Shown here piece after piece: positions 34,105 through 58,780 of a stretch of 64,000 nucleotides of DNA; position 1 is the first letter of the stretch, and each line of letters opens with the position of its first letter. A program made the translations under genes and the position numbers. Source of the stretch: Alphaproteobacteria bacterium (lineage in GTDB: Bacteria > Pseudomonadota > Alphaproteobacteria > Caulobacterales > Aquidulcibacteraceae); NCBI GenBank assembly GCA_018969015.1, contig JAGWZE010000014.1, positions 1 through 64,000 on the forward strand, read 5' to 3'. The notes beneath the pieces were generated by a model. That model saw only the letters and a list, made by a program, of their open reading frames with translations, ran no database searches and was not told the origin of the DNA.

Positions 34105-34554
34105 ATGGACGATCGTCAAGAACTTATCGAAATGACTGCCGAAATCGTATCGGCGTATGTCGGGGCCAACCAGATCGATCATCATGAACTGCCGGGGTTG
34201 ATCGAGACTGTGTTCGGCGCGCTGCGGGACGTTTCCGACCGTCGGGAAGGTCCGATTGAACCGGATCTGACGCCGGCGGTTCCGATCAAGAAGTCCGTCA
34301 CGCCCGAGTACATCGTTTGTCTCGAAGACGGGAAGAAGTTCAAATCGCTAAAGCGCCACTTGCGCACGCGTTACCACATGACGCCGGAAGAATACCGGGC
34401 GAAGTGGGGACTGCCCCACGACTACCCGATGGTGGCGCCGAACTACGCCAAGGCCCGCTCGGACCTCGCCAAGAAGATGGGCCTGGGCACGGCGCGCCCG
34501 GCGCCGCCGACCGGCGGACGCGGCCAGCGCACCCCCTCCGACAGCAACGACTAG
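34105..34554 (+). CDS. mucR: MucR/Ros family zinc-finger transcriptional regulator
   Basis: A 149-residue DNA-binding protein. The MDDRQELIEMTAEIVSAYVG-type N-terminus mediates oligomer formation. The Ros-type zinc finger is formed by Cys72, Asp75 (in place of a second Cys), His85 and His91 in VCLEDGKKFKSLKRHLRTRYH. The start is ATG 34105; an in-frame GTG at 34078 would add nine unconserved residues. The family is a global silencer of exopolysaccharide, motility and cell-cycle genes in alphaproteobacteria. It stands alone between the Mrp-like operon and a small HTH gene. Confidence 0.93.
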   Translation: MDDRQELIEMTAEIVSAYVGANQIDHHELPGLIETVFGALRDVSDRREGPIEPDLTPAVPIKKSVTPEYIVCLEDGKKFKSLKRHLRTRYHMTPEEYRAKWGLPHDYPMVAPNYAKARSDLAKKMGLGTARPAPPTGGRGQRTPSDSND

Positions 34555-34689
34555 TGCGGAGCGACGGTTCGAACCGCCCTCTTCCTAGGGGATAGAGCGC
34601 GGAATACGCAGGAATTTATCCTCTCCGACGTGTGCGACCTTAACGTTGACGCACGCCCGCTCCTTTGCGGCGCAAGAGAGAGGACACCA

Positions 34690-35055
34690 ATGGCCGCCCC
34701 GTTCCGTTTCGCGAGAGACAAAGCCGCCGCGCGCTTGGCCATGCACATGGCCGCCTACGCCTGTCACATCGACCCGGCGGAAGTGGAGGCGCGCACGCGC
34801 GGATCGGCCGAGGCGGCGGCGGCGCGGCAGCTGGCGATGTATCTCGCGCACGTGGCGATGAACATGAGCCTGGCGCGCGTGGCGATCGCGTTCGAGCGGG
34901 ACCGGTCGACGGTGGGGCATGCCTGCCGGGTGATCGAGGACCGCCGCGACGACCCCGCCTTCGACGCCCATGTCGAACTGCTGGAGGACCTGTTGCGGGA
35001 GGCCCCGCCGCCGGGCGTCGTTGCGGGGTATGGCATGCAGGCGGCGCGACGCTGA
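34690..35055 (+). CDS. Orphan DnaA domain-IV-like helix-turn-helix protein
   Basis: A 121-residue basic protein. Residues 46-84 (RQLAMYLAHVAMNMSLARVA, then FERDRSTVGHACRVIE) align by eye with the DNA-binding domain IV of DnaA, whose signature is FGRDHTTVxHA. Here the two middle residues read Asp-Arg-Ser-Thr-Val. No AAA+ domain is present, so it cannot replace DnaA but might bind DnaA boxes or similar sites. The ATG at 34690 follows AGAGAGGAC. Its stop is adjacent, with no gap, to the stop of the converging sufE gene. Confidence 0.72.
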   Translation: MAAPFRFARDKAAARLAMHMAAYACHIDPAEVEARTRGSAEAAAARQLAMYLAHVAMNMSLARVAIAFERDRSTVGHACRVIEDRRDDPAFDAHVELLEDLLREAPPPGVVAGYGMQAARR

Positions 35056-35484
35056 TCAGCCGGCGGCGGCGGCGGCCGCCTTCATTCGCCCGACGAGCGC
35101 GGCGAGCCCGTTTGACCGCTGCGGCGTGAGCGCCTCGTCGAGGCCCAGCCGCGCCATCACGGCGGGAAGGTCGGCCTTTGCGATTTCCGCGGGCGTGCGG
35201 TCCGAGAGCAGGCGGATCATCAGCGCCACGAGGCCGCGCACGATGTGCGCGTCGGAATCGCCCCGGAACACCATGCGCCCGCGTGCGGCGTCGTAGGCGC
35301 TGGTGAGCCAGACCTGGCTGGCGCAGCCGCGCACGCGGTTGGCCTCGGTCTTGTCGGCGTCCGGCAGCGGCGGCATGTCGCGACCGAGCTCGATCACGTA
35401 GCCGTAGCGCTCCTCCCAATCGGAAAAGAGGGCGAACTCGTCTTCGAGGTCGCGCAGGGCGGTGTCGAGGTCAGCGGTGGCCAT
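35056..35484 (-). CDS. sufE: SufE family cysteine desulfurase accessory protein
   Basis: Accepts persulfide sulfur from the desulfurase SufS for Fe-S cluster assembly. The 142-residue product is a single SufE domain, with the acceptor Cys54 in RVRGCASQVWL, preceded by YGYVIELGRDMPPL. The ATG at 35482-35484 is the first plausible start. It converges end-to-end with the DnaA-like gene: the two stop codons are directly adjacent at 35053-35058. Confidence 0.94.
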   Translation of the reverse strand: MATADLDTALRDLEDEFALFSDWEERYGYVIELGRDMPPLPDADKTEANRVRGCASQVWLTSAYDAARGRMVFRGDSDAHIVRGLVALMIRLLSDRTPAEIAKADLPAVMARLGLDEALTPQRSNGLAALVGRMKAAAAAAG

Positions 35485-47981: not shown

Positions 47982-48174
47982 GTCACAACTCCGGAGGGCC
48001 GCGCCATCGCGCGCGGCAGGCGGCCGGCGGCGATCTTAGGGGTTCGCTCCGTGGGTGCATAGGGCGCACCTCATCCCGGCCTCGAAACCGCCGTAGGCCA
48101 AGGCGCACAAGGCCGGCGCGCGGCCGGGCGGCGAAACGATCCGACCGGCTCCGGCGCGCGCCTAGCCTTGGCGC

Positions 48175-48489
48175 ATGAGTTCGCCGACCCGCCTGCGCGC
48201 CGACATCTCCGATCTCGAAGCGGCCCTCGACGCGGCCCGCGCCGCGCTCGCGGCCGGCGAGATGGGCGAGGCCGAGCGTGCGGCCAAGGCGCTCTCCGCC
48301 GTCACCCGCGCCGCCGAAGCGCTCGCTGATCTCGGCCGCGCCCTTGCTTCCCCCGTTTCCGACGAGACCCGTGCAGCCGACGACGCCCAAGCCCGCGCCG
48401 ACGTGGAGCGCCGCATCCGAAACCTTGTCCGACGTGCGCGCCGCGCGGGCTATCGCGCAGGCGCCGGCCGCGCCGGAGATCCGCGATGA
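48175..48489 (+). CDS. GTA g1-like small terminase subunit
   Basis: A 104-residue Ala/Arg-rich protein, mostly one long helix or coiled coil (LEAALDAARAALAAGEMGEAERAAKAL) with a basic tail. It stands directly before and overlaps the large terminase gene, which is the place and size of g1 (TerS) in the Rhodobacter capsulatus GTA. Sequence similarity cannot be claimed by eye; the call rests on position, length and helical nature. GTA small terminases lack the specific DNA recognition of phage TerS. Confidence 0.65.
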   Translation: MSSPTRLRADISDLEAALDAARAALAAGEMGEAERAAKALSAVTRAAEALADLGRALASPVSDETRAADDAQARADVERRIRNLVRRARRAGYRAGAGRAGDPR

Positions 48490-49687
48490 GTTTGCGCTCT
48501 GGGCCGGCCCCGGCCAATTGCCGCCGCGCGGCGACTGGCGCGTGTGGGTGTTCGTCGGCGGGCGCGGCGCGGGCAAGACGCGCGCCGGCGCCGAGTGGGT
48601 TCACGCCTGCGTCGCGGCCGGCGTCGCGCGGCGCATCGCGCTCGTCGGTCAATCCCAGCTCGACGTGCGCAACGTCATGATCGAAGGCGCTTCGGGTCTC
48701 CTCGCCGTCGGTCGCACGCGGCCCACCTACGAACCGAGCCTTCGGCGCGTGTCGTGGCCCAATGGCGCGCAGGCCTTCGCCTATTCCGCGGAGGAGCCGG
48801 ACGGCCTGCGCGGCCCGCAGTTCGACGCCGCCTGGGGCGACGAGTTCTGCGCCTGGCCGGATCCGGACCTCGTGCTCGGCGTGCTGCGGCCGGCGCTGCG
48901 GCTGGGCGCGCACCCGCGGCTTGCGATCACCACGACGCCGCGCCCGATCGCGGCGCTCGCCACGCTCTGCGCCACGCCGGGCGCCGTCACGACGCGCGCC
49001 ACGATGGCCGAAAACGCGGACAATCTCGCGCCCGGCTTCGTCGAGGACATGCGCGCCTTGTGGGGCGGCACACGCTTCGGCCGCCAGGAGCTCGACGGCG
49101 AATTGCTCGCCGCTCCCGACGGCGCCTTGTGGACGCGCGACGGCCTCGCGCGCTGCCGTGGCGCAGCGCCCGCGACGCTCGACGAGATCGTCGTCGCCGT
49201 CGATCCGCCCGCCTCGGCCGGCGCGGATGCGGATGCGTGCGGCGTGATCGTCGCCGGCGCCGTCGGCGAGGGCGCGGCGCGCCGCGGCGTGGTGCTCGAA
49301 GACGCCACCGTCCAGGGCCTGACGCCGCTCGGTTGGGCGCGCGTCGCGTGTGACGCCGCCGCGCGCTGGCGCGCCAGCCGCATCGTCGCGGAGTCCAACC
49401 AGGGCGGCGAGATGGTGCGCACCACGCTCCTCGTCGCCGGGGCGCCGGTTCCCGTGCGGCTCTTGCGGGCCCAGGTCTCGAAGACGGCGCGCGCCGAGCC
49501 GGTCGCGGCGCTCTACGAGCGCGGTCGCATCACCCATGCGGGCGTGTTCGCCGCCCTCGAAGCCGAGATGTGCGCGTTCGGCGAGGCTCATGCCGGCCGC
49601 GCCAGTCCGGACCGCGTGGATGCGCTCGTCTGGGCGCTCACCGACGTGATGCTCGCCCGCGCCGCACCCGGCGTGCGCGTCCTGTGA
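48425..49687 (+). CDS. GTA g2-like large terminase
   Basis: DNA-packaging motor of about 420 residues. Walker A GGRGAGKTRAGAEW is at about residues 45-58, and the acidic pair is in AAWGDEFCAW. The nuclease domain is marked by VVAVDPPAS, RIVAESNQGG and DRVDALVWAL, the acidic residues of the RNase H-like fold. The start is uncertain: TTG 48425 or GTG 48434, both inside g1; the frame is open back to 48278. Packaging by GTA terminases is by headful of host DNA. Confidence 0.9.
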   Translation: MSDVRAARAIAQAPAAPEIRDEFALWAGPGQLPPRGDWRVWVFVGGRGAGKTRAGAEWVHACVAAGVARRIALVGQSQLDVRNVMIEGASGLLAVGRTRPTYEPSLRRVSWPNGAQAFAYSAEEPDGLRGPQFDAAWGDEFCAWPDPDLVLGVLRPALRLGAHPRLAITTTPRPIAALATLCATPGAVTTRATMAENADNLAPGFVEDMRALWGGTRFGRQELDGELLAAPDGALWTRDGLARCRGAAPATLDEIVVAVDPPASAGADADACGVIVAGAVGEGAARRGVVLEDATVQGLTPLGWARVACDAAARWRASRIVAESNQGGEMVRTTLLVAGAPVPVRLLRAQVSKTARAEPVAALYERGRITHAGVFAALEAEMCAFGEAHAGRASPDRVDALVWALTDVMLARAAPGVRVL

Positions 49688-49698
49688 GGAGACTTGCG

Positions 49699-50850
49699 AT
49701 GTTCGACTGGTTGAGGACGCGCGCGGCGCCGCGGCCGCCCGAGGTCAAGCGCCTCGTGGCGTGGCAGGGCACGCCGCGCGCGATGTGGTCCCCGCACGAT
49801 CCCGCCGCGTTCGCGCGCGAAGGCTATGGCAAGAACCCGATCGCGTACCGGTGCGTGCGCCTGATCGCCGAATCCGCCGCGAGCGCGCCCCTGCGCGTCG
49901 ATCCGCCGGATCATCCGCTCGCGGCGCTGCTGGATCGTCCGAATCCGGATCAGACCGGCGTTGCGCTGCTCGAAACCCTGTTCGGCCATCTGCACGTGGC
50001 CGGCAACGGCTTCCTCGAGGCGGTCGCCGCGGACGGCGAGCCGCCCCTGGAGCTGCACGCCCTGCGTCCCGATCGCATGGCCGTCATTCCGGGGGCGGAC
50101 GGCCCGGCCGGATGGGAGCATCGCGTGGACGGGCGCGTGCGCCGGCTTCTGCGCGATCCGCTCGGCGATCCGGGCCCGGTGCTGCATCTCAAGCTGTTCC
50201 ATCCGCTCGACGATTTCTGGGGGCAGTCGCCGATGGAGGCGGCCGGCGCGGCGATCGACGTGCACAATGCCGGCGCCGCCTGGAACAAGGCCCTGATCGA
50301 CAATGCAGCGAGGCCTTCCGGCGCGCTCGTCTTCGCCGCGCCCGGCGAGCGCCTCAGCGACGAACAGTTCGATCGCCTGAAGGCGGAACTGGAGCGCGCC
50401 CACCAGGGCCCGGAAAACGCCGGGCGCCCGCTGCTCCTCGAAGGCGGGCTCGACTGGAAGCCCATGAGCCTCACGCCGGCGGACATGGACTTCGCCGAGG
50501 CGCGCCACGCCGCCGCGCGGGAGATTGCGCTCGCCTTCGGGGTGCCGCCGATGATGCTCGGCATTCCCGGCGACAACACCTACTCGACCTACAAGGAAGC
50601 CAATCTCGCGTTCTGGCGGATCGCCGCCGCGCCGCTCGCGCAGAAGACGGCGCGCCTCTTGGAGATTTGGCTCGGCGCCCGCTGGCCTGGCTCGCGCGCG
50701 CGGGTGCGCGTCGATCTCGACGCCGTGCCGGCGCTGGCGGCGGAGCGGGAGACGCTGTGGGCGCGGCTCGAGGCGGCGAGCTTTCTCGACCGCGCGGAAA
50801 AGCGCCGCATCGCCGGCCTCGACGCAGCGCCGCCGGAGGCCCGCCCGTGA
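49699..50850 (+). CDS. GTA g3-like portal protein (HK97 family)
   Basis: A 383-residue HK97-type portal. Motifs are NPIAYRCVRLIAESAASAP near the N-terminus, GNGFLEAVAADGEPPLELHALRP (quoted in parts: VAGNGFLEA and ELHALRPDRM) and FGVPPMMLGIPGDNTYSTYKEA. It forms the dodecameric ring through which DNA enters the capsid. The ATG at 49699 follows GAGGAG. It overlaps the next gene at its stop codon. Confidence 0.93.
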   Translation: MFDWLRTRAAPRPPEVKRLVAWQGTPRAMWSPHDPAAFAREGYGKNPIAYRCVRLIAESAASAPLRVDPPDHPLAALLDRPNPDQTGVALLETLFGHLHVAGNGFLEAVAADGEPPLELHALRPDRMAVIPGADGPAGWEHRVDGRVRRLLRDPLGDPGPVLHLKLFHPLDDFWGQSPMEAAGAAIDVHNAGAAWNKALIDNAARPSGALVFAAPGERLSDEQFDRLKAELERAHQGPENAGRPLLLEGGLDWKPMSLTPADMDFAEARHAAAREIALAFGVPPMMLGIPGDNTYSTYKEANLAFWRIAAAPLAQKTARLLEIWLGARWPGSRARVRVDLDAVPALAAERETLWARLEAASFLDRAEKRRIAGLDAAPPEARP

Positions 50851-51077
50851 TGGACAAGCGCATCACCGCTGCGCTGGCGTTCGCCATTCTCGTGCAGGCC
50901 GCCGGCGCGCTGATCTGGACGGGGCGCGCGGCGCAACGCCTGGAGCAGGTGGAGCGGCGCCTTGCGGAACAGGCGGGCGTGGCCGAGCGGCTGGCCCGCA
51001 TGGAGACGGAGATCATCGATCTCACCCGCGCCGTCGAGCGTCTCGATCCCGTGCAGCCGCGGCGGCAGACGCCGTGA
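50850..51077 (+). CDS. GTA g3.5-like small protein
   Basis: A 75-residue protein with one hydrophobic helix (AALAFAILVQAAGALIW) and a coiled coil (LEQVERRLAEQAGVAERLARME). It lies between portal and protease genes, exactly where RcGTA has orf g3.5. The ATG overlaps the last base of the portal stop; GTG 50847 is an alternative start. The role in GTA production is unknown. Confidence 0.75.
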   Translation: MDKRITAALAFAILVQAAGALIWTGRAAQRLEQVERRLAEQAGVAERLARMETEIIDLTRAVERLDPVQPRRQTP

Positions 51078-51511
51078 GCCTCATCGTCGAAGGCTATGCG
51101 GCGCTGTTCGGCGCGCCGGATCGCGAAGGCGACGTGATCGCCGCCGGCGCGTTCCGCGCCGCGCTCGCGGGCGCGGACAAGCTCCCGATGCTGCTCGAGC
51201 ACGATGCGCGGCTGCGCGCCGGCGTGTGGCTCCATCTCGAAGAAGACGCCCGCGGCCTGTTCGTCCAGGGCCGGATCGACACGAACGCGGCGGCCGGATC
51301 GCTCGCGGCGCGCCGGATCGCCCGCGGCGTCGACGGCCTTTCGATCGGCTACCGCGTCCGCGCCGCGCGCGCACGGCCCGGCGGCCGCGAGCTGTTCGCG
51401 ATCGACCTCGTCGAAATCTCCATCGTCTCCGAGCCGATGGCGCCCCGCGCCCGGCTCACCCGCATCGGATGGTCCGAGGCGGAACTCTCCAGATTGGGAG
51501 AACCTGCATGA
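51074..51511 (+). CDS. GTA g4-like prohead protease (HK97 family)
   Basis: A 145-residue caudovirus prohead protease. The fold motif GYAALFGAPDREGDVIAAGAF is typical, with likely catalytic His43 (LLEHD) and Ser90 (DGLSIGYRV). EISIVSEPMAPRA closes the domain. It cuts the capsid protein delta domain during maturation. It is shorter than RcGTA gp4. The start is GTG, overlapping g3.5 by 4 bases. Confidence 0.92.
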   Translation: MSLIVEGYAALFGAPDREGDVIAAGAFRAALAGADKLPMLLEHDARLRAGVWLHLEEDARGLFVQGRIDTNAAAGSLAARRIARGVDGLSIGYRVRAARARPGGRELFAIDLVEISIVSEPMAPRARLTRIGWSEAELSRLGEPA

Positions 51512-52722
51512 CCCATGACGTGAAGGCGGCCTCGTCGCCGTCCGCCGAGGAGGCGCTGCGCCTCTTCGAGGCGTTCAAGGACGCGAACGACGAGCGTCTT
51601 GCGGCGATCGCCGCAAAGCGCCCGGATCCGCTGCTGGAGGACCGCGTCGCGCGCATCGAAAGCGCGTTGCAGCGCGTCGAAACCAAGGCGGAGCGCGCCG
51701 AGCGCGCCGGCGTCGTCGGGTTGCGGCCCGGCGTCGGCGCCGATCCGGCCGAGCCCGCCCACAAGAGCGCCTGGGCGGCCTATCTGCGCCGCGGCGACGA
51801 AAGCCAGATGGCCGCGCTCGAACTCAAGGCGCTGTCGGCGGGTTCGCCGACCGACGGGGGCTATATGTCGCCGCCGGACCTCGATCGCCGCATCGAGAAG
51901 CGTCTCCAGGAAACCTCGCCGATGCGCCAGATCGCGACGGTGCGCACCACCGGCGCCACGATCTTCCACCGCATCTTCTCCACGACTGCAGCCGGCGCGG
52001 GCTGGGCCGCCGAAACGGCGGGGCGTCCGCAAGGCGCGACGCCCACGCTGTCGATGATCGAGGCGACGACGTTCGAGCTGTTCGCGAACCTCGCCGCGAC
52101 ACAGACCTTGCTGGACGACGCCTATGTCGACGTCGAGGAGTGGATCGCCAGCGAATGCGAGGAGGCGTTCTCCGGCCAGGAGCGCGCGGTGTTCGTCAAC
52201 GGGGACGGCGTCGGCAAGCCGAAGGGCTTCCTGGCCTATCCGGTCGTCGCCGACGCCTCGCAAGGCTGGGGTCAGCTTGGCTACCTGGCCACCGGCGTCG
52301 CCGGGGGCTTTCCCGCCACGGCGCCCGTCGAAAAGCTGATCGACCTCATCTTCGCGCCGAAGGCGATCTATCGGCAGAATGCGCGCTTCGTCATGAACCG
52401 GCGCACGCTCGCGGCCGTCCGCAAGCTGAAGGACCAGACCAACGCCTACATCTGGCGGCCGGCGGATGCGGCCGGGGACTCGACCGTTCTCGGCTACCCC
52501 GTCACCGAGATCGAGGACATGCCGAACATCGCCACGGACACGATGGCGATCGCGTTCGGGGACTTCCAGCGTGGCTATCTGATCGTCGACCGCGCCGGCG
52601 TGCGCGTGCTGCGCGATCCCTACAGCGCCAAGCCCTACGTGCTGTTCTACGTGACCAAGCGCGTCGGCGGCGCCGTGCAGAACTTCGACGCGATCAAGCT
52701 GTTGAAGTTCGGCGCGAGCTGA
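51508..52722 (+). CDS. GTA g5-like major capsid protein (HK97 fold)
   Basis: A 404-residue HK97-type capsid protein. Residues about 10-75 are the coiled-coil delta domain that the protease removes. The mature part starts near LKALSAGSPTDGGYMSPPDL. Further capsid motifs are AGWAAETAGRP, FVNGDGVGKPKGFL, RQNARFVMNRRTL and AIAFGDFQRGYLIVDRAG. It overlaps the protease gene by 4 bases. The frame is complete with no sign of decay. Confidence 0.95.
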   Translation: MTHDVKAASSPSAEEALRLFEAFKDANDERLAAIAAKRPDPLLEDRVARIESALQRVETKAERAERAGVVGLRPGVGADPAEPAHKSAWAAYLRRGDESQMAALELKALSAGSPTDGGYMSPPDLDRRIEKRLQETSPMRQIATVRTTGATIFHRIFSTTAAGAGWAAETAGRPQGATPTLSMIEATTFELFANLAATQTLLDDAYVDVEEWIASECEEAFSGQERAVFVNGDGVGKPKGFLAYPVVADASQGWGQLGYLATGVAGGFPATAPVEKLIDLIFAPKAIYRQNARFVMNRRTLAAVRKLKDQTNAYIWRPADAAGDSTVLGYPVTEIEDMPNIATDTMAIAFGDFQRGYLIVDRAGVRVLRDPYSAKPYVLFYVTKRVGGAVQNFDAIKLLKFGAS

Positions 52723-53261
52723 TGGGCGTCGTCGTCGTCACCCCGCCCGCGACCGAGCCCGTCTCGGTCGCGGAGGCGGCGGCCCTGGCGCGCGTCCCGG
52801 CCGATCAGGACGCCGCCATTTTCGCTGCGCTCATCGCGGCTGCGCGCGAGATCGTCGAGGCCCGCACGGGCCTGGCGCTGGTCTCGCGCCGGGTGCGCGA
52901 AACGCGCGCCGTGGCCGAACTCGATGAAGGGGCGTTCGCCGCCGCCTTCGCGCCGGTGCGGCAAATTTATGCGGCGCGTTGGACATCCGCGTCCGGCGCG
53001 TCGGGCGCGCTCACCGTCGCGCTCGCCGCGGCCGATCCGCCCGGTCGCGTGCGCGCCACGCCGCCGACGGTGGCCGACGCCGTCGAGATCGAGATGCAGG
53101 TGGGCTTCGGCGCCCCGTCGGACGTCCCGGCGGCGTTGCGCCACGCGGTGCTCGACCTGGTGCTCGCGCTCTATCTCGGCCGCGGCGAGGCCGGTGCGCC
53201 GGTGCTGACGGCAAAAACCGCAGCGCTCCTGGCGCCGTTCGTGCGGCGGCGCGCGCCATGA
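52722..53261 (+). CDS. GTA g6-like head-tail connector protein
   Basis: A 179-residue protein of the phage gp6-like connector type (TEPVSVAEAAALARV, AARE-IVEARTGLALVSRR, PAALRHAVLDLVLALYLGRG). It binds below the portal as an adaptor. Its ATG shares one base with the capsid stop. In known GTA clusters the next genes are g7-g11, but here the next ATG, 53258, overlaps this stop and begins the g12 homologue. Confidence 0.88.
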   Translation: MGVVVVTPPATEPVSVAEAAALARVPADQDAAIFAALIAAAREIVEARTGLALVSRRVRETRAVAELDEGAFAAAFAPVRQIYAARWTSASGASGALTVALAAADPPGRVRATPPTVADAVEIEMQVGFGAPSDVPAALRHAVLDLVLALYLGRGEAGAPVLTAKTAALLAPFVRRRAP

Positions 53262-53890
53262 GCGGGTTCCATGACATCGCGTTTCCCGCCGCGCTTGCGC
53301 GCCGCGCGCGGGGCGGGCCCGTCGATACGACCGAGATCATCGCGCTTGGCGCGGGTCGCGAGGCGCGCCTTCAGCGCGGCGCGGTGGCGCGGCGGCGGTA
53401 CGAGGTGGCGCCAGGCGTCTTGGCGCCGGACGAGGCGGCGGCGCTCGCCGCGTTCTTCGTCGCGCGGCGGGGCCGGGGCTTTGCGTTTCGCCTGCGCGAT
53501 CCGCTCGACCAGCGTTCGGGCGGGCCGCTCGCGCCGCTCACCGCGACGGATCAGAAGCTGGGCGTCGGTGATGGCGCGCGTCGCGCGTTCCAGCTCGTGA
53601 AGCGCTACGGCGACGCCGCCGCCGCGGTCCTGCGGCCGATCACGGCGCCGGTTGCGGGAACGACGCGCGTCAGTCTCGACGGCGCGGAGCTGGCGGCGAC
53701 GGCGTTTTCGTGCGACGCCGCGACCGGGGTGGTGACCTTTGCAGCGGCGCCGGGCGCCGGCGCGGTCGTCCGCGCTGGGTTCGTGTTCGATACGCCGGTG
53801 CGCTTCGACTGCGACCGCCTCGATCTCGCGCCGACCGAGGATGGCCAAGTCCGGTGCGCGCCGTTTGCGCTGGTCGAGGTCACGCCATGA
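53258..53890 (+). CDS. GTA g12-like distal tail protein (DUF2460/TIGR02217)
   Basis: A 210-residue protein, near the normal length of gp12. Signatures are GFHDIAFPAALARRARGGPVD, RRYEVAPGVLAPDEAAALAAFFVARRGRGFAFRLRD (recognised as YEVAPGVL and FVARRGRGFAFRLRD) and TPVRFDCDRLDL. It forms the distal ring at the tip of the tail tube. It directly follows g6 with a 4-base overlap; no g7, g8, g9, g10 or g11 is present between. Confidence 0.93.
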   Translation: MSGFHDIAFPAALARRARGGPVDTTEIIALGAGREARLQRGAVARRRYEVAPGVLAPDEAAALAAFFVARRGRGFAFRLRDPLDQRSGGPLAPLTATDQKLGVGDGARRAFQLVKRYGDAAAAVLRPITAPVAGTTRVSLDGAELAATAFSCDAATGVVTFAAAPGAGAVVRAGFVFDTPVRFDCDRLDLAPTEDGQVRCAPFALVEVTP

Positions 53891-54498
53891 CGCGGCGCAC
53901 GCTCGCCGTCACGCTGAGGCGACGCGACGGCGTCACGCTCGGCTTCACGGATCAAGAGACGACGCTCGTGGTCGACGGCGTCCCGCATGCGCCCGCGCCG
54001 ATCGCCCTTGCCGATGGCGTCGCCACGTTCGGCGTGGAGGACCTGCCGCCCGTCGTGACCGGCGTGCTCGACGACGACGCGCTGAGCGCCGTCGATCTCG
54101 ACGCGGGGCTTTGGGACGGCGCGGACGTGCGCGTGCGCCGTGTCGACCTCGAAGATCCCTCCGTAAGCGTGATCGTCATGGTGGGCCGCCTTGGCGCCGT
54201 GCGGCGCGGCGACGGGGTGTTCGAAGCGGAAATCGAAGGGCCGAAGGCGGCGCTCGCGCGCCCGATCGGCCGCGTGTTCGCCCGCACCTGCGACGCCGAT
54301 CTCGGCGACGCCCGCTGCGGCGTCGATCTCACCGCGCCGGCCAACGCAGGCGCGGTGTGCGACAAGACGCTCCTCACCTGCCGGACACGGTTCGGCAACG
54401 CCGTCAATTTCCGCGGCTTCCCGCACATGATCGGGCCTGACGTCCTCGTGCGCGCCGCCGACGCGGACGGACCGGCCGACGGCGGCGCACGGGGATGA
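53887..54498 (+). CDS. GTA g13-like baseplate hub protein (DUF2163/BR0599), shortened
   Basis: A 203-residue hub protein with DUF2163 features (RRDGVTLGFTDQE, GLWDGADVRV, RVFARTCDADLGDARCGVDL) and the C-terminal BR0599 signature RFGNAVNFRGFPHMIGPD. Four cysteines (TCDAD, ARCGV, VCDKT, LTCRT) match the sites that bind an Fe-S cluster in RcGTA and lambda-type hub proteins. Family members are usually about 280-300 residues. Here about 60-70 residues that normally separate GVDL from CDK are missing, with only TAPANAGAV between. The frame is intact. It overlaps g12 by 4 bases. Confidence 0.88.
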   Translation: MTRRTLAVTLRRRDGVTLGFTDQETTLVVDGVPHAPAPIALADGVATFGVEDLPPVVTGVLDDDALSAVDLDAGLWDGADVRVRRVDLEDPSVSVIVMVGRLGAVRRGDGVFEAEIEGPKAALARPIGRVFARTCDADLGDARCGVDLTAPANAGAVCDKTLLTCRTRFGNAVNFRGFPHMIGPDVLVRAADADGPADGGARG

Positions 54499-54959
54499 CG
54501 ATCCTGGACCAGGCCCCGCCGGTGCGCATGGCGATCGTCGCCGCTGCGCGCCGATGGATCGGAACGCCGTATCGGCATCAGGCGAGCGTGCGCGGCGCCG
54601 GCGCCGATTGCCTCGGCGTCGTGCGCGGGGTGTGGCGCGAGGTGATCGGGCCGGAGCCGGAATCGCCGCCCGCCTACGCGCCGGACTGGCATGATCCGCA
54701 CGGGGACGATCTCCTCGGCGCGGCGCTCGGGCGCTGGATGGCGTCCGTTCCGCCGGACCAGGCCGCGCCGGGCGACGTGCTGCTGTTCCGGATGGATGCG
54801 CTCTCGCCGCCGCGCCACGCCGACCTCCTCGTATCGCCGGGGACGATGGTGCACGCCTATTGGGCCCGCGCCGTCGTCGAGAGCCGGTGTTCGCCCTGGT
54901 GGCGCGCGCGCTGCGCCGCCGCCTTCGCCTTTCCCGGAGCCGAGCCATGGCCCAGCTGA
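54495..54959 (+). CDS. GTA g14-like NlpC/P60 peptidase
   Basis: A 154-residue NlpC/P60 peptidase with Cys39 (GADCLGVVRGVW), His108 (PRHADLLV) and His120 (MVHAYW). It matches phage cell-wall peptidase TIGR02219, used to pass the recipient peptidoglycan. It overlaps g13 by 4 bases and g15 by 13 bases. Confidence 0.93.
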   Translation: MTILDQAPPVRMAIVAAARRWIGTPYRHQASVRGAGADCLGVVRGVWREVIGPEPESPPAYAPDWHDPHGDDLLGAALGRWMASVPPDQAAPGDVLLFRMDALSPPRHADLLVSPGTMVHAYWARAVVESRCSPWWRARCAAAFAFPGAEPWPS

Positions 54960-57900
54960 TCCTCTCGCGCGTGGCCGCCGCAGCCGCGCGCGCCGTCGCG
55001 CCGCAAACCTTCAAGGCGATCGCGGCCCGCCTGGCCGCGCGCGCCGGCGCCGCGCTCGGGCGCCGGATCGACGCCGCGTTGTTTCCGGAGCGCCGCAGCG
55101 TCGGGCCGCGCCTCACCGATCTTCACGTGCAGGGGTCGCAGGAAGGCGAAAGCCTGCCGATGCTGTTCGGACGCATGCGGATCGCCGGGCAGGTGATCTG
55201 GGCGGCGCGCTTCAAGGCGCACGCCACCACGAAACGCAGCGGCGGCAAGACCGGCGCGAAGGTCACGACGACGCGCTACACGATCAGCTTCGCCGTGGCG
55301 CTGTGCGAGGGCGTGGCGCACGGGATCGGGCGCGTCTGGGCCAACGGCGCGCCGCTCGATCTCTCCGGCGTGGCGTGGCGATTCCATCCGGGCACGGAAG
55401 ACCAGGCGCCGGACCCGGTCATCGAGGCGGTCGAAGGCGTCGACGCCGCGCCGGCCTATCGCGGCGTTGCGTACGTGGTCTTCGAGGACCTGCCGCTGGA
55501 CGCCTTTGGCGACACGCTCCCGCAACTGTCGTTCGAGGTCCTGCGGACGCCGCCGGCGGCGCCGGGCCCGGCGCGCCTTGAGGATCTGACGCGCGGCGTT
55601 TGTCTCATCCCCGGCGCCGGCGAGTTCGCCTATGCGACGCAGATCGTGCGGCGCGTCGATGACGGCAGGCTCGCCGCGGCGGAAAACTGCCATGTCGACG
55701 CCCGCCGCGCCGATCTCGTGGTCGCGCTCGACGATCTGGCGCGCGCCGCGCCCGGCTGCCGTACCGTGACGCTGGTGATCGGCTGGTTCGGCGACGATCT
55801 GCGCGCGGGCCTCTGCAAGGTGCGGCCCGGAGTCGATCGCCGTGACAAGACGACCGCGCCGCTCGCCTGGCGCGTGAGCGGCGTCGATCGCGCGTCCGCC
55901 TATCTGGTCTCGACGCATGACGGCGCGCCGGCCTATGGCGGATCGCCCAGCGACGACAGCGTGCTGCAGGCGATCGCCGCCCTGAAGGCGCGCGGCTACG
56001 CGGTGACGCTCGCGCCGTTCCTGTTCATGGACGTGCCCGCGGGCGCGACGAAGCCCGACCCGAACGGGACGGGCGCGCAGCCGGCCTATCCCTGGCGCGG
56101 GCGCCTGCGCCCGGCGGCGGCGGATCGCACGGCCGGCGTGGCGAGCGACGTCGCGGCGTTTTTCGGCACGTGCGGCCCGCAGCACGTTCTCCCCGGACCG
56201 CACGGCCCGCTCTATGCGGGACCTGACGAATGGTCCTGGCGGCGTTTCGTGCTCCACGTCGCGGGGCTCGCGCGCGCGGCGGGCGGCGTCGATGCGATCC
56301 TCATCGGCTCGGAGCTGCGCGGGCTCACCACGGCGCGCGACGCCGCGGGCGCGTTCCCCGCGGTCGCGCAGCTGCGCGCGCTGGCGCGGGACGTGCGCAC
56401 GATGCTCGGGCCGGGCGTGAAGATCACCTACGCCGCCGATTGGACCGAATATGCCGGCGTCTCGGGACCGAACGGCGAGAAGATCTTTCACCTCGATCCG
56501 CTGTGGGCCGATCCGGTCATCGATGCCGTCGCGATCGACTGGTATCCGCCGCTCACGGATTGGCGCGATGGCGAGGCCCATCTCGACACCGCGATCGCCG
56601 AAAGCCCCGACGATCCCGCCTATCTCGACGCGCGCGTGGAGGGCGGTGAGGCGTATGCGTGGTTCTACGCCAACGCCGCCGATCGCAGCGCACAGAAGCG
56701 CACGCCGATCGCGGACGGCGTGGCCGGCGAAGCCTGGATCTGGCGCGCCAAGGATCTGCGCGCATTCTGGTCCAACCGCCACTTCGACCGCCCCGGCGGC
56801 ATGCGCGCGACGACGCCGACGGCGTGGGTTCCCGGCTCCAAGCCGATCTGGCTCGCCGAGCTCGGCGCGCCCGCAGTCGACAAGGCCGGCAACGCGCCCA
56901 ATGTTTTCCCCGACGCCAAAAGCAGCGAGAGCGCCGCGCCGCCCTTCTCCTCGGGCGCGCGCGACGACATCGCCCAGCGCCGCGTGCTCGAGGCGATCCT
57001 GCGCCACTACGCCGAGGGCGGGCCGAACAATCCGAGCGCGACGCTGTATGCCGGCGCGATGATCGACATGAGCCGGACGTGTCTGTGGGCCTGGGACGCG
57101 CGACCGTTCCCGGCGTTTCCGGCGCGCGCCGACGTGTGGGCCGACGCGGACGCGTGGCGCACCGGACATTGGCTCAACGGCCGGCTGGGCGCCGGCGATC
57201 TCGCCGCGGTCGTGGCGGATGTGTGCGCGCGCGCGGGATGCGCCGAGATCGACGTGACGCGGCTGACCGGCGTGGTGGCGGGCTATGTCGTCGATGCGCC
57301 GACGACCGCCGCCGACGCGCTGGCGCCGCTGATGTCGGCGCACGCATTCGGCGTGACGGCGCAGGCCGGGCGTCTCGTGTTTCTGCCGGAGAACGGGCGC
57401 GCGCCGCGCGCTTTGGCGGCCGAGGATCTCTGCGTCGCGCCCGCGGTCCGCGTCGAGCGGCCGGCGCGCGGGGCGCTCGCGGCGGATGCGGCGGTGCGCT
57501 TCGTCGATCCGGAGAACGCCTACCGTATCGGCGCCGTCGTGACGCGCGGGGCGGATGCCGGCGACGCCGCCGGTCTGATCTCGATCGACGCGCCGTTCGC
57601 GCTCGGCGCCGCTCAGGCCGCCGCGCTCGGCGCCGCCGCGCTGGCGCGCCAGGCACGCGCCTCGGTGCGCTTCGCGGTTCCCGAAACGCGGACCGATCTC
57701 GCGCCGGGCGATGCAGTGCGCCTCGACGGACTGGGCGCCGCCACGTTCCGCATCGAACGCATCGAGACGCATGCCGCGACGCTGCAGATCGAGGCCGTCG
57801 AGCGCGGCGACGACGTGGCGTTGCGCGCGGGCGCGACACCGGCGCCGCCTTCGCCGGACCTCGCGCCTGATCCGCGCCTGATCCCGCTCGATCTGCCCCC

Positions 57901-58780
57901 GCTGCCCGGCGCGGAAGAGGACGCGCGCCCGCTCGTCGCCGTCGTGGCGCGCCCGATGCGCGCGCTCGACCTCTACGCCAACGGCGCGCTCGCCGCCCGT
58001 GCGGAGCGCGCCGCCACGGTGGGCGCGCTCGAATGGGCGCTGTGGCCGGGGCCGGTCGGCGTGTGGGACCGCGGCAACGTCGTGCGCCTGCGCATGCCGG
58101 GGGCGCCGCTCGCGAGCGTGGACGATGACGCCGCGCGCGCGGTCGCCAATCTGTTCGCCATCGGGCAGGCGGACGGCGGCTGGGAGCTCGTCGGCATACG
58201 CCAGCTCACGCTCGTCGGCCCCGACCTCTACGAGGCGGCGTGGCTCCTGCGGGGGCTGGCGGGCTCCGAAGGCGCGATGGGGCGGCCGGCGCCCGTGGGC
58301 GCCCCCGTCGTGCGCCTGGACGACGCGCTCGTCCGGCTCGATCTCGATCCCGCCTTGGCCGATGGCGCGCGGCTCGCGGCGGTGGCGGCCGGCATGGCGT
58401 CCGAAACCGCCTTGCGGGAGTGGCCGATCGCGTGGCGACGCGTCTGGGCCCGACCGTTCGCGCCCTGCCATTTGCGCGCCCGCCGCCGTGCGGACGGCGA
58501 CGTCGTCTTGAGCTGGATCCGCCGCGCCCGCCGGGGCGGCGACGACTGGACGGTGAGCGATCCGCCGCTGGGCGAAGAGCGGGAACGCTACCGGCTGGAG
58601 ATCCTGAACGCCGGCGCGCCGGTCCGCATCGTCGAGACCGAGGCGCCCGGCTGGACCTACGCCGCAGCCGATCAGATCGCCGACTTCGGCTACCGACCCG
58701 GCTGGCTGGCCTGGCGCGTGGCGCAGATCTCATCCGCCTATGGGCCAGGGGGGCGCAGCGAATCGAGCGGGGCGCTATAG
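54947..58780 (+). CDS. GTA g15-like host-specificity / megatron protein
   Basis: A 1277-residue tail-tip protein, close to RcGTA gp15 (about 1300). The N-terminal region (1-250) contains LTDLHVQGSQEGESLPMLFGRMR (baseplate part; key LPMLFGRMRIAGQVIW). Residues about 390-690 are the GTA TIM-barrel-like domain, with VDAILIGSELRGL, TYAADWTEY and VDAVAIDWYPPL-type strand motifs and RTCLWAWDARPFPAFP. Residues about 800-960 are the phage tail domain (RLVFLPENG, RVERPARG). The C-terminus ends in a fibronectin-like fold (PGWTYAAADQIADFGY). It starts inside g14. The frame is open throughout, arguing against decay. Confidence 0.93.
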   Translation: MAQLILSRVAAAAARAVAPQTFKAIAARLAARAGAALGRRIDAALFPERRSVGPRLTDLHVQGSQEGESLPMLFGRMRIAGQVIWAARFKAHATTKRSGGKTGAKVTTTRYTISFAVALCEGVAHGIGRVWANGAPLDLSGVAWRFHPGTEDQAPDPVIEAVEGVDAAPAYRGVAYVVFEDLPLDAFGDTLPQLSFEVLRTPPAAPGPARLEDLTRGVCLIPGAGEFAYATQIVRRVDDGRLAAAENCHVDARRADLVVALDDLARAAPGCRTVTLVIGWFGDDLRAGLCKVRPGVDRRDKTTAPLAWRVSGVDRASAYLVSTHDGAPAYGGSPSDDSVLQAIAALKARGYAVTLAPFLFMDVPAGATKPDPNGTGAQPAYPWRGRLRPAAADRTAGVASDVAAFFGTCGPQHVLPGPHGPLYAGPDEWSWRRFVLHVAGLARAAGGVDAILIGSELRGLTTARDAAGAFPAVAQLRALARDVRTMLGPGVKITYAADWTEYAGVSGPNGEKIFHLDPLWADPVIDAVAIDWYPPLTDWRDGEAHLDTAIAESPDDPAYLDARVEGGEAYAWFYANAADRSAQKRTPIADGVAGEAWIWRAKDLRAFWSNRHFDRPGGMRATTPTAWVPGSKPIWLAELGAPAVDKAGNAPNVFPDAKSSESAAPPFSSGARDDIAQRRVLEAILRHYAEGGPNNPSATLYAGAMIDMSRTCLWAWDARPFPAFPARADVWADADAWRTGHWLNGRLGAGDLAAVVADVCARAGCAEIDVTRLTGVVAGYVVDAPTTAADALAPLMSAHAFGVTAQAGRLVFLPENGRAPRALAAEDLCVAPAVRVERPARGALAADAAVRFVDPENAYRIGAVVTRGADAGDAAGLISIDAPFALGAAQAAALGAAALARQARASVRFAVPETRTDLAPGDAVRLDGLGAATFRIERIETHAATLQIEAVERGDDVALRAGATPAPPSPDLAPDPRLIPLDLPPLPGAEEDARPLVAVVARPMRALDLYANGALAARAERAATVGALEWALWPGPVGVWDRGNVVRLRMPGAPLASVDDDAARAVANLFAIGQADGGWELVGIRQLTLVGPDLYEAAWLLRGLAGSEGAMGRPAPVGAPVVRLDDALVRLDLDPALADGARLAAVAAGMASETALREWPIAWRRVWARPFAPCHLRARRRADGDVVLSWIRRARRGGDDWTVSDPPLGEERERYRLEILNAGAPVRIVETEAPGWTYAAADQIADFGYRPGWLAWRVAQISSAYGPGGRSESSGAL

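Follow-up and report, generated by a model that had tools for sequence, protein, structure and literature searches.

An RcGTA-like head-tail gene cluster occupies positions 48175-58780 of the window, i.e., the whole stretch of 64,000 nucleotides that was analysed, as eleven open and mostly overlapping frames on the forward strand. The head genes begin with g1 (48175..48489), a small terminase-type gene of 104 aa whose frame matches the g1 of relatives weakly by tblastn and has no match in a Pfam search. It is followed by the large terminase g2 (48434..49687, with an uncertain start at GTG 48434 or upstream; PF03237 and PF17289, Terminase_6), which is the sole Terminase_6N match genome-wide, the portal g3 (49684..50850; Phage_portal, PF04860, E 1.1e-80), the small conserved gene g3.5 (50850..51077), found at the equivalent position in relatives, the prohead protease g4 (51074..51511; Peptidase_S78, PF04586) and the major capsid protein g5 (51508..52722; Phage_capsid, PF05065, E 6e-83). 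A PDB sequence search with g6 (52722..53261) gave no match, but its AF2 model (mean pLDDT 94) matches the RcGTA head-tail adaptor of 6toa/6tba (E 8.5e-10, TM 0.78). The tail-tip genes are g12 (53258..53890), a distal tail protein (Dit; DUF2460, PF09343) matching Rcc01695 of RcGTA in 6tba (E 1.7e-40) and also in fold, the baseplate hub g13 (53887..54498; PF09931 and PF09356, Gp84_N/BR0599), the peptidoglycan peptidase g14 (54495..54959; NLPC_P60, PF00877) and the megatron g15 (54947..58780; RcGTA megatron 6tba_8A, E 4e-267; GTA_TIM/Rcc01698_C). With 203 aa, the hub falls about 90 aa short of that of the nearest relatives (about 290 aa); short g13 hubs are also found in families f2 and f3, whose tails are complete. 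Pfam, the solved structures and the g6 model thus agree with a sequence-only reading of this DNA, which had recognized g1-g6 and g12-g15 of RcGTA type in this interval.

Eleven genes in 10.6 kb make this an RcGTA-like head-tail cluster in the sense of at least nine RcGTA homologues with neighbours no more than 5 kb apart (Kogay 2019, PMC6821227). It is not a complete one in the sense of all 14 of 17 genes, g1, g3.5 and g7 being exempt (Kogay 2024, PMC10883770), as g8, g9, g10, g10.1 and g11 are absent. The cluster is inherited vertically and is not a prophage, given its shared neighbours and the congruence of GTA and housekeeping trees; most relatives in f1 and f4 have PBP1A next to it.

Regarding the junction between g6 and g12 (53240..53270, forward strand), which lies where relatives carry g7, g8, g9, g10, g10.1 and g11, g6 ends at 53261 and the ATG of g12 lies at 53258. 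Stop and start thus share ATGA at 53258-53261, leaving no space for g7-g11, and the overlap of 4 bases and the missing genes described by the sequence-only reading are confirmed. That reading had also proposed to compare the junction in relatives and to search the whole genome with tail-gene profiles, and both comparisons bear it out. Tail genes precede g12 in 17 of 19 same-order loci (counting one contig-edge locus that shows g11 only), usually with about 2 kb between g6 and g12 taken up by neck, tube, chaperone and tape-measure genes, so that the absence of g7-g11 is a deletion. By this comparison, the cluster has lost the genes for its stopper, terminator, tail tube, chaperone and tape measure. 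The register of the junction, RRAP* in the window versus RRNL* at the end of g11, in phase before the g12 start, suggests that one deletion fused the 3' end of g6 with that of g11, in frame with the last g11 codons.

It was also envisaged by that reading that the particle could be completed by tail genes elsewhere in the genome. The possible scatter of GTA genes over a genome and the unlinked position of the tail fibre here speak for such a completion. It is nonetheless very unlikely: over the window's own genome (99.97% complete), a fused g6-to-g12 profile returned g6 and g12 alone, PF06199 gave nothing at E<=1 and the gene g9 profile gave no match, i.e., no g7-g11 homologue was found, and a genome with one large terminase has no prophage of that type as an obvious donor. 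A siphovirus-like tail is likewise not indicated by this genome, in which no tube or tape-measure gene was matched. Even less credit can be given to an assembly error in which reads collapsed over the junction. Although the genome is a draft of 69 contigs, the frame and the stop/start overlap are exact at the junction, there is no repeat of the required size, the missing 2 kb is on no other contig, and two genomes of the sister genus show similar losses in other assemblies.

A second clean loss affects the regulators. A gafY-type gene for a DnaA-like activator (34690..35055, forward strand; assigned from synteny and open frames) stands in the order MucR, gafY and then directly sufE, the gafY stop adjoining the sufE end, where relatives have gafZ (DUF6456). 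gafZ is cleanly missing at 35055/35056 (region 34554-35080). DUF6456, via which gafA homologues are annotated (PMC9638019, PMC9765227), was found by domain search neither in the window genome nor in G043, a genome of the sister genus, so that of GafA/GafYZ control only gafY is present, gafZ being absent from both the genome and its syntenic place. The sequence-only reading had described the cluster as not decayed, which holds for its eleven open frames but not for its activator gene. In Caulobacter crescentus, GafZ, GafY and IHF together transcribe the cluster (PMC11150451); without GafZ, expression of the window cluster must differ from that of the Caulobacter GTA. The loss need not be fatal, because genera g6 and g14 of the family have complete clusters in which a DUF6456 gene was undetected. 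Upstream of g1, a promoter-like core (AAACGATCCGACCG ... CTAG; 48130..48180, forward strand) is conserved in front of relatives' clusters and may act as their promoter; it agrees with the family motif at 12 of 14 bases, and 0 of 200 shuffles were as good. In genera g10 and g12 (e.g., L090 and L030), a conserved palindrome, TGGCCGAATTCTGGCC, lies about 90 bases before the core AATCAATCCGACCG and is a candidate activator site. It is not present upstream in the window genome, genus g9 or G001; as G001 is an outgroup, its absence from the window was not scored as a loss. Finally, the window genome, like G015 and G043 of the sister genus, retains a DUF2793 tail-fibre gene unlinked to the cluster. 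Among the genomes sampled, this gene was found in 13 of the 16 that have a complete cluster versus 4 of the 11 that have none.

With regard to selection on the remaining genes, a GY94-type codon model was applied to 2,796 codons from 12 genomes, replacing pairwise NG86 dN/dS, which was saturated for the window. The dN/dS was 0.110 for the background, 0.195 for the window branch and 0.092 for the two tips of genus g9, where single-gene stem estimates come from branches too short for reliable values. A dN/dS of 1 was rejected both for the window branch (2dL 250) and for the genus g9 tips (2dL 1406), and the value of the window branch is significantly above background (2dL 31). The structural genes on the window branch are thus under purifying selection, relaxed relative to the background. 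The rise is confined to GTA genes, neither PBP1A (0.108 in the window versus 0.078) nor rpoB+rpoC (0.056 versus 0.050) differing significantly. No stop codon is found across the 3,556 codons of the window cluster. With the window codons, a stop would probably have arisen once neutral substitutions exceeded about 191, i.e., 1.5% of the branch, and a neutral phase therefore covers at most about 1.5% of the branch. The cluster is not an old pseudogene: coding selection acted through nearly the whole branch, until very recently or still, and more weakly than in complete clusters.

These values bear directly on a GTA that was just switched off, where the losses of gafZ and g7-g11 ended production recently and the frames are open for lack of time. 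Two separate clean losses specific to the GTA, a dN/dS raised in GTA genes alone, the decayed remnants in G048, G230 and G238 and the frequency of whole-cluster loss in the family, about 20 of whose 60 genomes have no cluster match whatever, all fit such an ending. However, a neutral phase of at most about 1.5% of the branch cannot alone account for a dN/dS of 0.195 where the background has 0.110. Intact tail-less clusters are found twice in a small clade (G000, the window genome, and G015), more often than so short an interval would lead one to expect, and in some genera of the family a complete cluster goes together with no detectable DUF6456 gene. A just-switched-off GTA is nearly as likely as the reduced GTA considered below. 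The very young deletion suggested by the sequence-only reading is compatible with the limit set by the lack of stop codons, which bears on a neutral phase and not on the age of the deletion itself. That reading had also named complete relatives together with relaxed selection in this strain as evidence against it: the relatives are complete and selection is relaxed in GTA genes only, and the objection applies just in part.

Three proteins, those of g6, g12 and g13, have changed most. At sites invariant in 16 relatives with complete clusters, the window differs at 14 of 41 in g6, 13 of 50 in g12 and 12 of 40 in g13, versus 7-9% in g2, g3 and g15 and 16% in g5. Within g12, all changes fall in the tube-like ring (13/34) and none in the insertion domain (0/16; Fisher p 0.004, with domain limits set after seeing the data), and G015 and G043 have just 2-3 changes at invariant g12 sites. 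The pattern in the g12 ring agrees with remodelling of the ring interface in the window lineage, or with no more than released constraint, which could equally account for the changes in all three proteins.

How often the tube is lost was surveyed in 298 genomes of the order, each at least 90% complete. The fused profile matched in 226 of them and gene g9 in 209; the former search scored two candidates per genome and cannot alone prove tail loss, and the gene g9 profile was added. Seventeen genomes have a profile match but no gene g9, and just three of these, all of one family, carry largely intact clusters, namely the window genome, G015 and G043. Ten of the other 14 were inspected, three of them (G238, G230 and G290) more closely: the G238 cluster, with g15 broken, is without g1, g2, g7 and g9-g11, the G230 cluster is decayed and G290 resembles a prophage. 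Among 148 loci spanning g5/g6 to g12 in genomes and IMG/VR contigs, gene g9 is missing in two, G015 and one decayed contig. G048, of the same family as the window, retains a scrap of g11 together with g12-g15. Tube loss is thus rare and whole-cluster loss common. The IMG/VR search returned no close relative of the window's genus. In G048 (L078), g1-g10 and most of g11 are deleted up to PBP1A and g12-g15 are open, a tail-tip-only remnant. L249 of G238, on a complete chromosome from another family, is a second independent tail-less GTA cluster, with g8 broken, g15 frame-broken and no g1-g2.

The closest parallels come from genus g9, which is sister to the window's genus both in the GTA protein tree (SH-aLRT 90) and in the rpoB+rpoC+rplJ+rplL tree (87/98). 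G015 retains a short g7 and is missing g8-g11, while G043 retains g8 and is missing g7 and g9-g11. Both are missing g1 and g2 in the cluster, a loss older than their split because the PBP1A-g3 region is homologous between them. The frame of g15 is interrupted in G043, and a third genome, G008, has lost the whole cluster. A single ancestral loss of g9-g11 in the common ancestor of the two genera is plausible, and in event counts one shared tail loss ties with separate losses, at four each. Relocation of TerL was considered for the loss of g1-g2 in genus g9 and was rejected, as the lone TerL of G015 and G043 falls in another clade. This lone large terminase, with HTH-type N-terminal repeats (frames of 604-630 aa), lies beside the gyrB region (L232:8100-10450 in G043; L233:8540-10354 in G015), and the cluster-less G008 has three relatives of it. 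In G015 (C20, L201/L224), an rpoB fragment groups outside its genus, and the MAG bin may be contaminated.

Taken with these relatives, the reading tentatively favoured here is that of a reduced GTA under weakened coding selection which probably still makes a reduced product, perhaps a short-tailed particle. In RcGTA, the 12-fold adaptor is followed by one stopper, one terminator, five tube and one Dit ring, all with a single fold (PMC7296036). Direct docking of the g12 ring on the adaptor is conceivable because stopper, terminator, tube and Dit rings share fold and origin. The head built of g3, g4 and g5, with its portal and the adaptor g6, would then receive the g12 ring straight on the adaptor, and the outcome would be a podovirus-like short-tailed particle in which hub, peptidase, megatron and the separately encoded fibre may serve adhesion. 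In favour of such a reduced GTA, the tips of genus g9, also without tube genes, have a dN/dS as low as complete clusters, and their g1-g2 loss predates the split of the two species. The stop-free frames and the rejection of a dN/dS of 1 on the window branch, the two trees that join the genera, the retained fibre gene and promoter core, the concentration of changes in g6, g12 and g13 and the small number of tube rings in RcGTA point the same way. Counting against it are the deletion of gafZ, the rise of dN/dS in GTA genes only, as expected of a weakening function, the loss of the cluster in G008, the frame break of g15 in G043 and the decayed G048, G230 and G238. The tape measure is thought to hold the DNA, and its loss weighs against the same reading. 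The strong purifying selection on tail-less genus g9 and the changes seen in g6, g13 and the g12 ring lend support, short of establishing it, to the proposal of the sequence-only reading that the tail tip joins straight to the connector.

A more far-reaching variant, which appears doubtful, is a stable tube-less GTA lineage. Here the common ancestor of the window's genus and genus g9 would already have lost tube and tape measure, Dit would have come to sit on the adaptor or on a lone neck ring, and selection would since have kept the short-tailed head-plus-baseplate particle, with or without DNA transfer as its use. What maintains selection on GTA genes has yet to be settled (Redfield and Soucy 2018, PMC6209664). 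Tube-less lineages with head and baseplate under purifying selection separate DNA delivery from any other role that the cluster may have, and the question becomes testable. As surveys discarded incomplete clusters (PMC10883770), tube-less forms would stay unnoticed. A tube-less particle, if made, would represent an evolutionary step from long-tailed to short-tailed architecture, and the selection retained in tail-less clusters raises the question of what role a stub particle may have.

Among known systems, RcGTA of Rhodobacter capsulatus (rcc01682-rcc01698) resembles the window in the order of g1-g6 and g12-g15, the folds of g6 and g12, the megatron g15 and a separate DUF2793 fibre, whereas the window has no g7, g8, g9, g10, g10.1 and g11, a short hub and a gafA-type function reduced to gafY. 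CcGTA of C. crescentus shares with it the order-level lineage, the gafY gene and the promoter-like core but, unlike the window, encodes tail-tube genes and GafZ, both deleted here. No tail is visible on CcGTA particles by TEM although tail genes are present (PMC9632790); this would accord with an order that tolerates a very short tail, though it is no test of it. Decayed RcGTA-like remnants (G048, G230, G238 and the IMG/VR locus L257) have also lost their middle genes and partly kept g12-g15, but with broken frames or mere fragments of head genes. The genus g9 clusters (G015 L037/L120, JAEUMP010000023.1; G043 L077) have in common with the window the head and baseplate genes, the absence of g9-g11, clean gene ends and purifying selection, and differ from it in being also without g1-g2, in the presence of a short g7 (G015) or g8 (G043) and in an unaltered g12 ring domain. 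By gene content the window cluster is RcGTA-like, and its tube-less form is rare but not unique.
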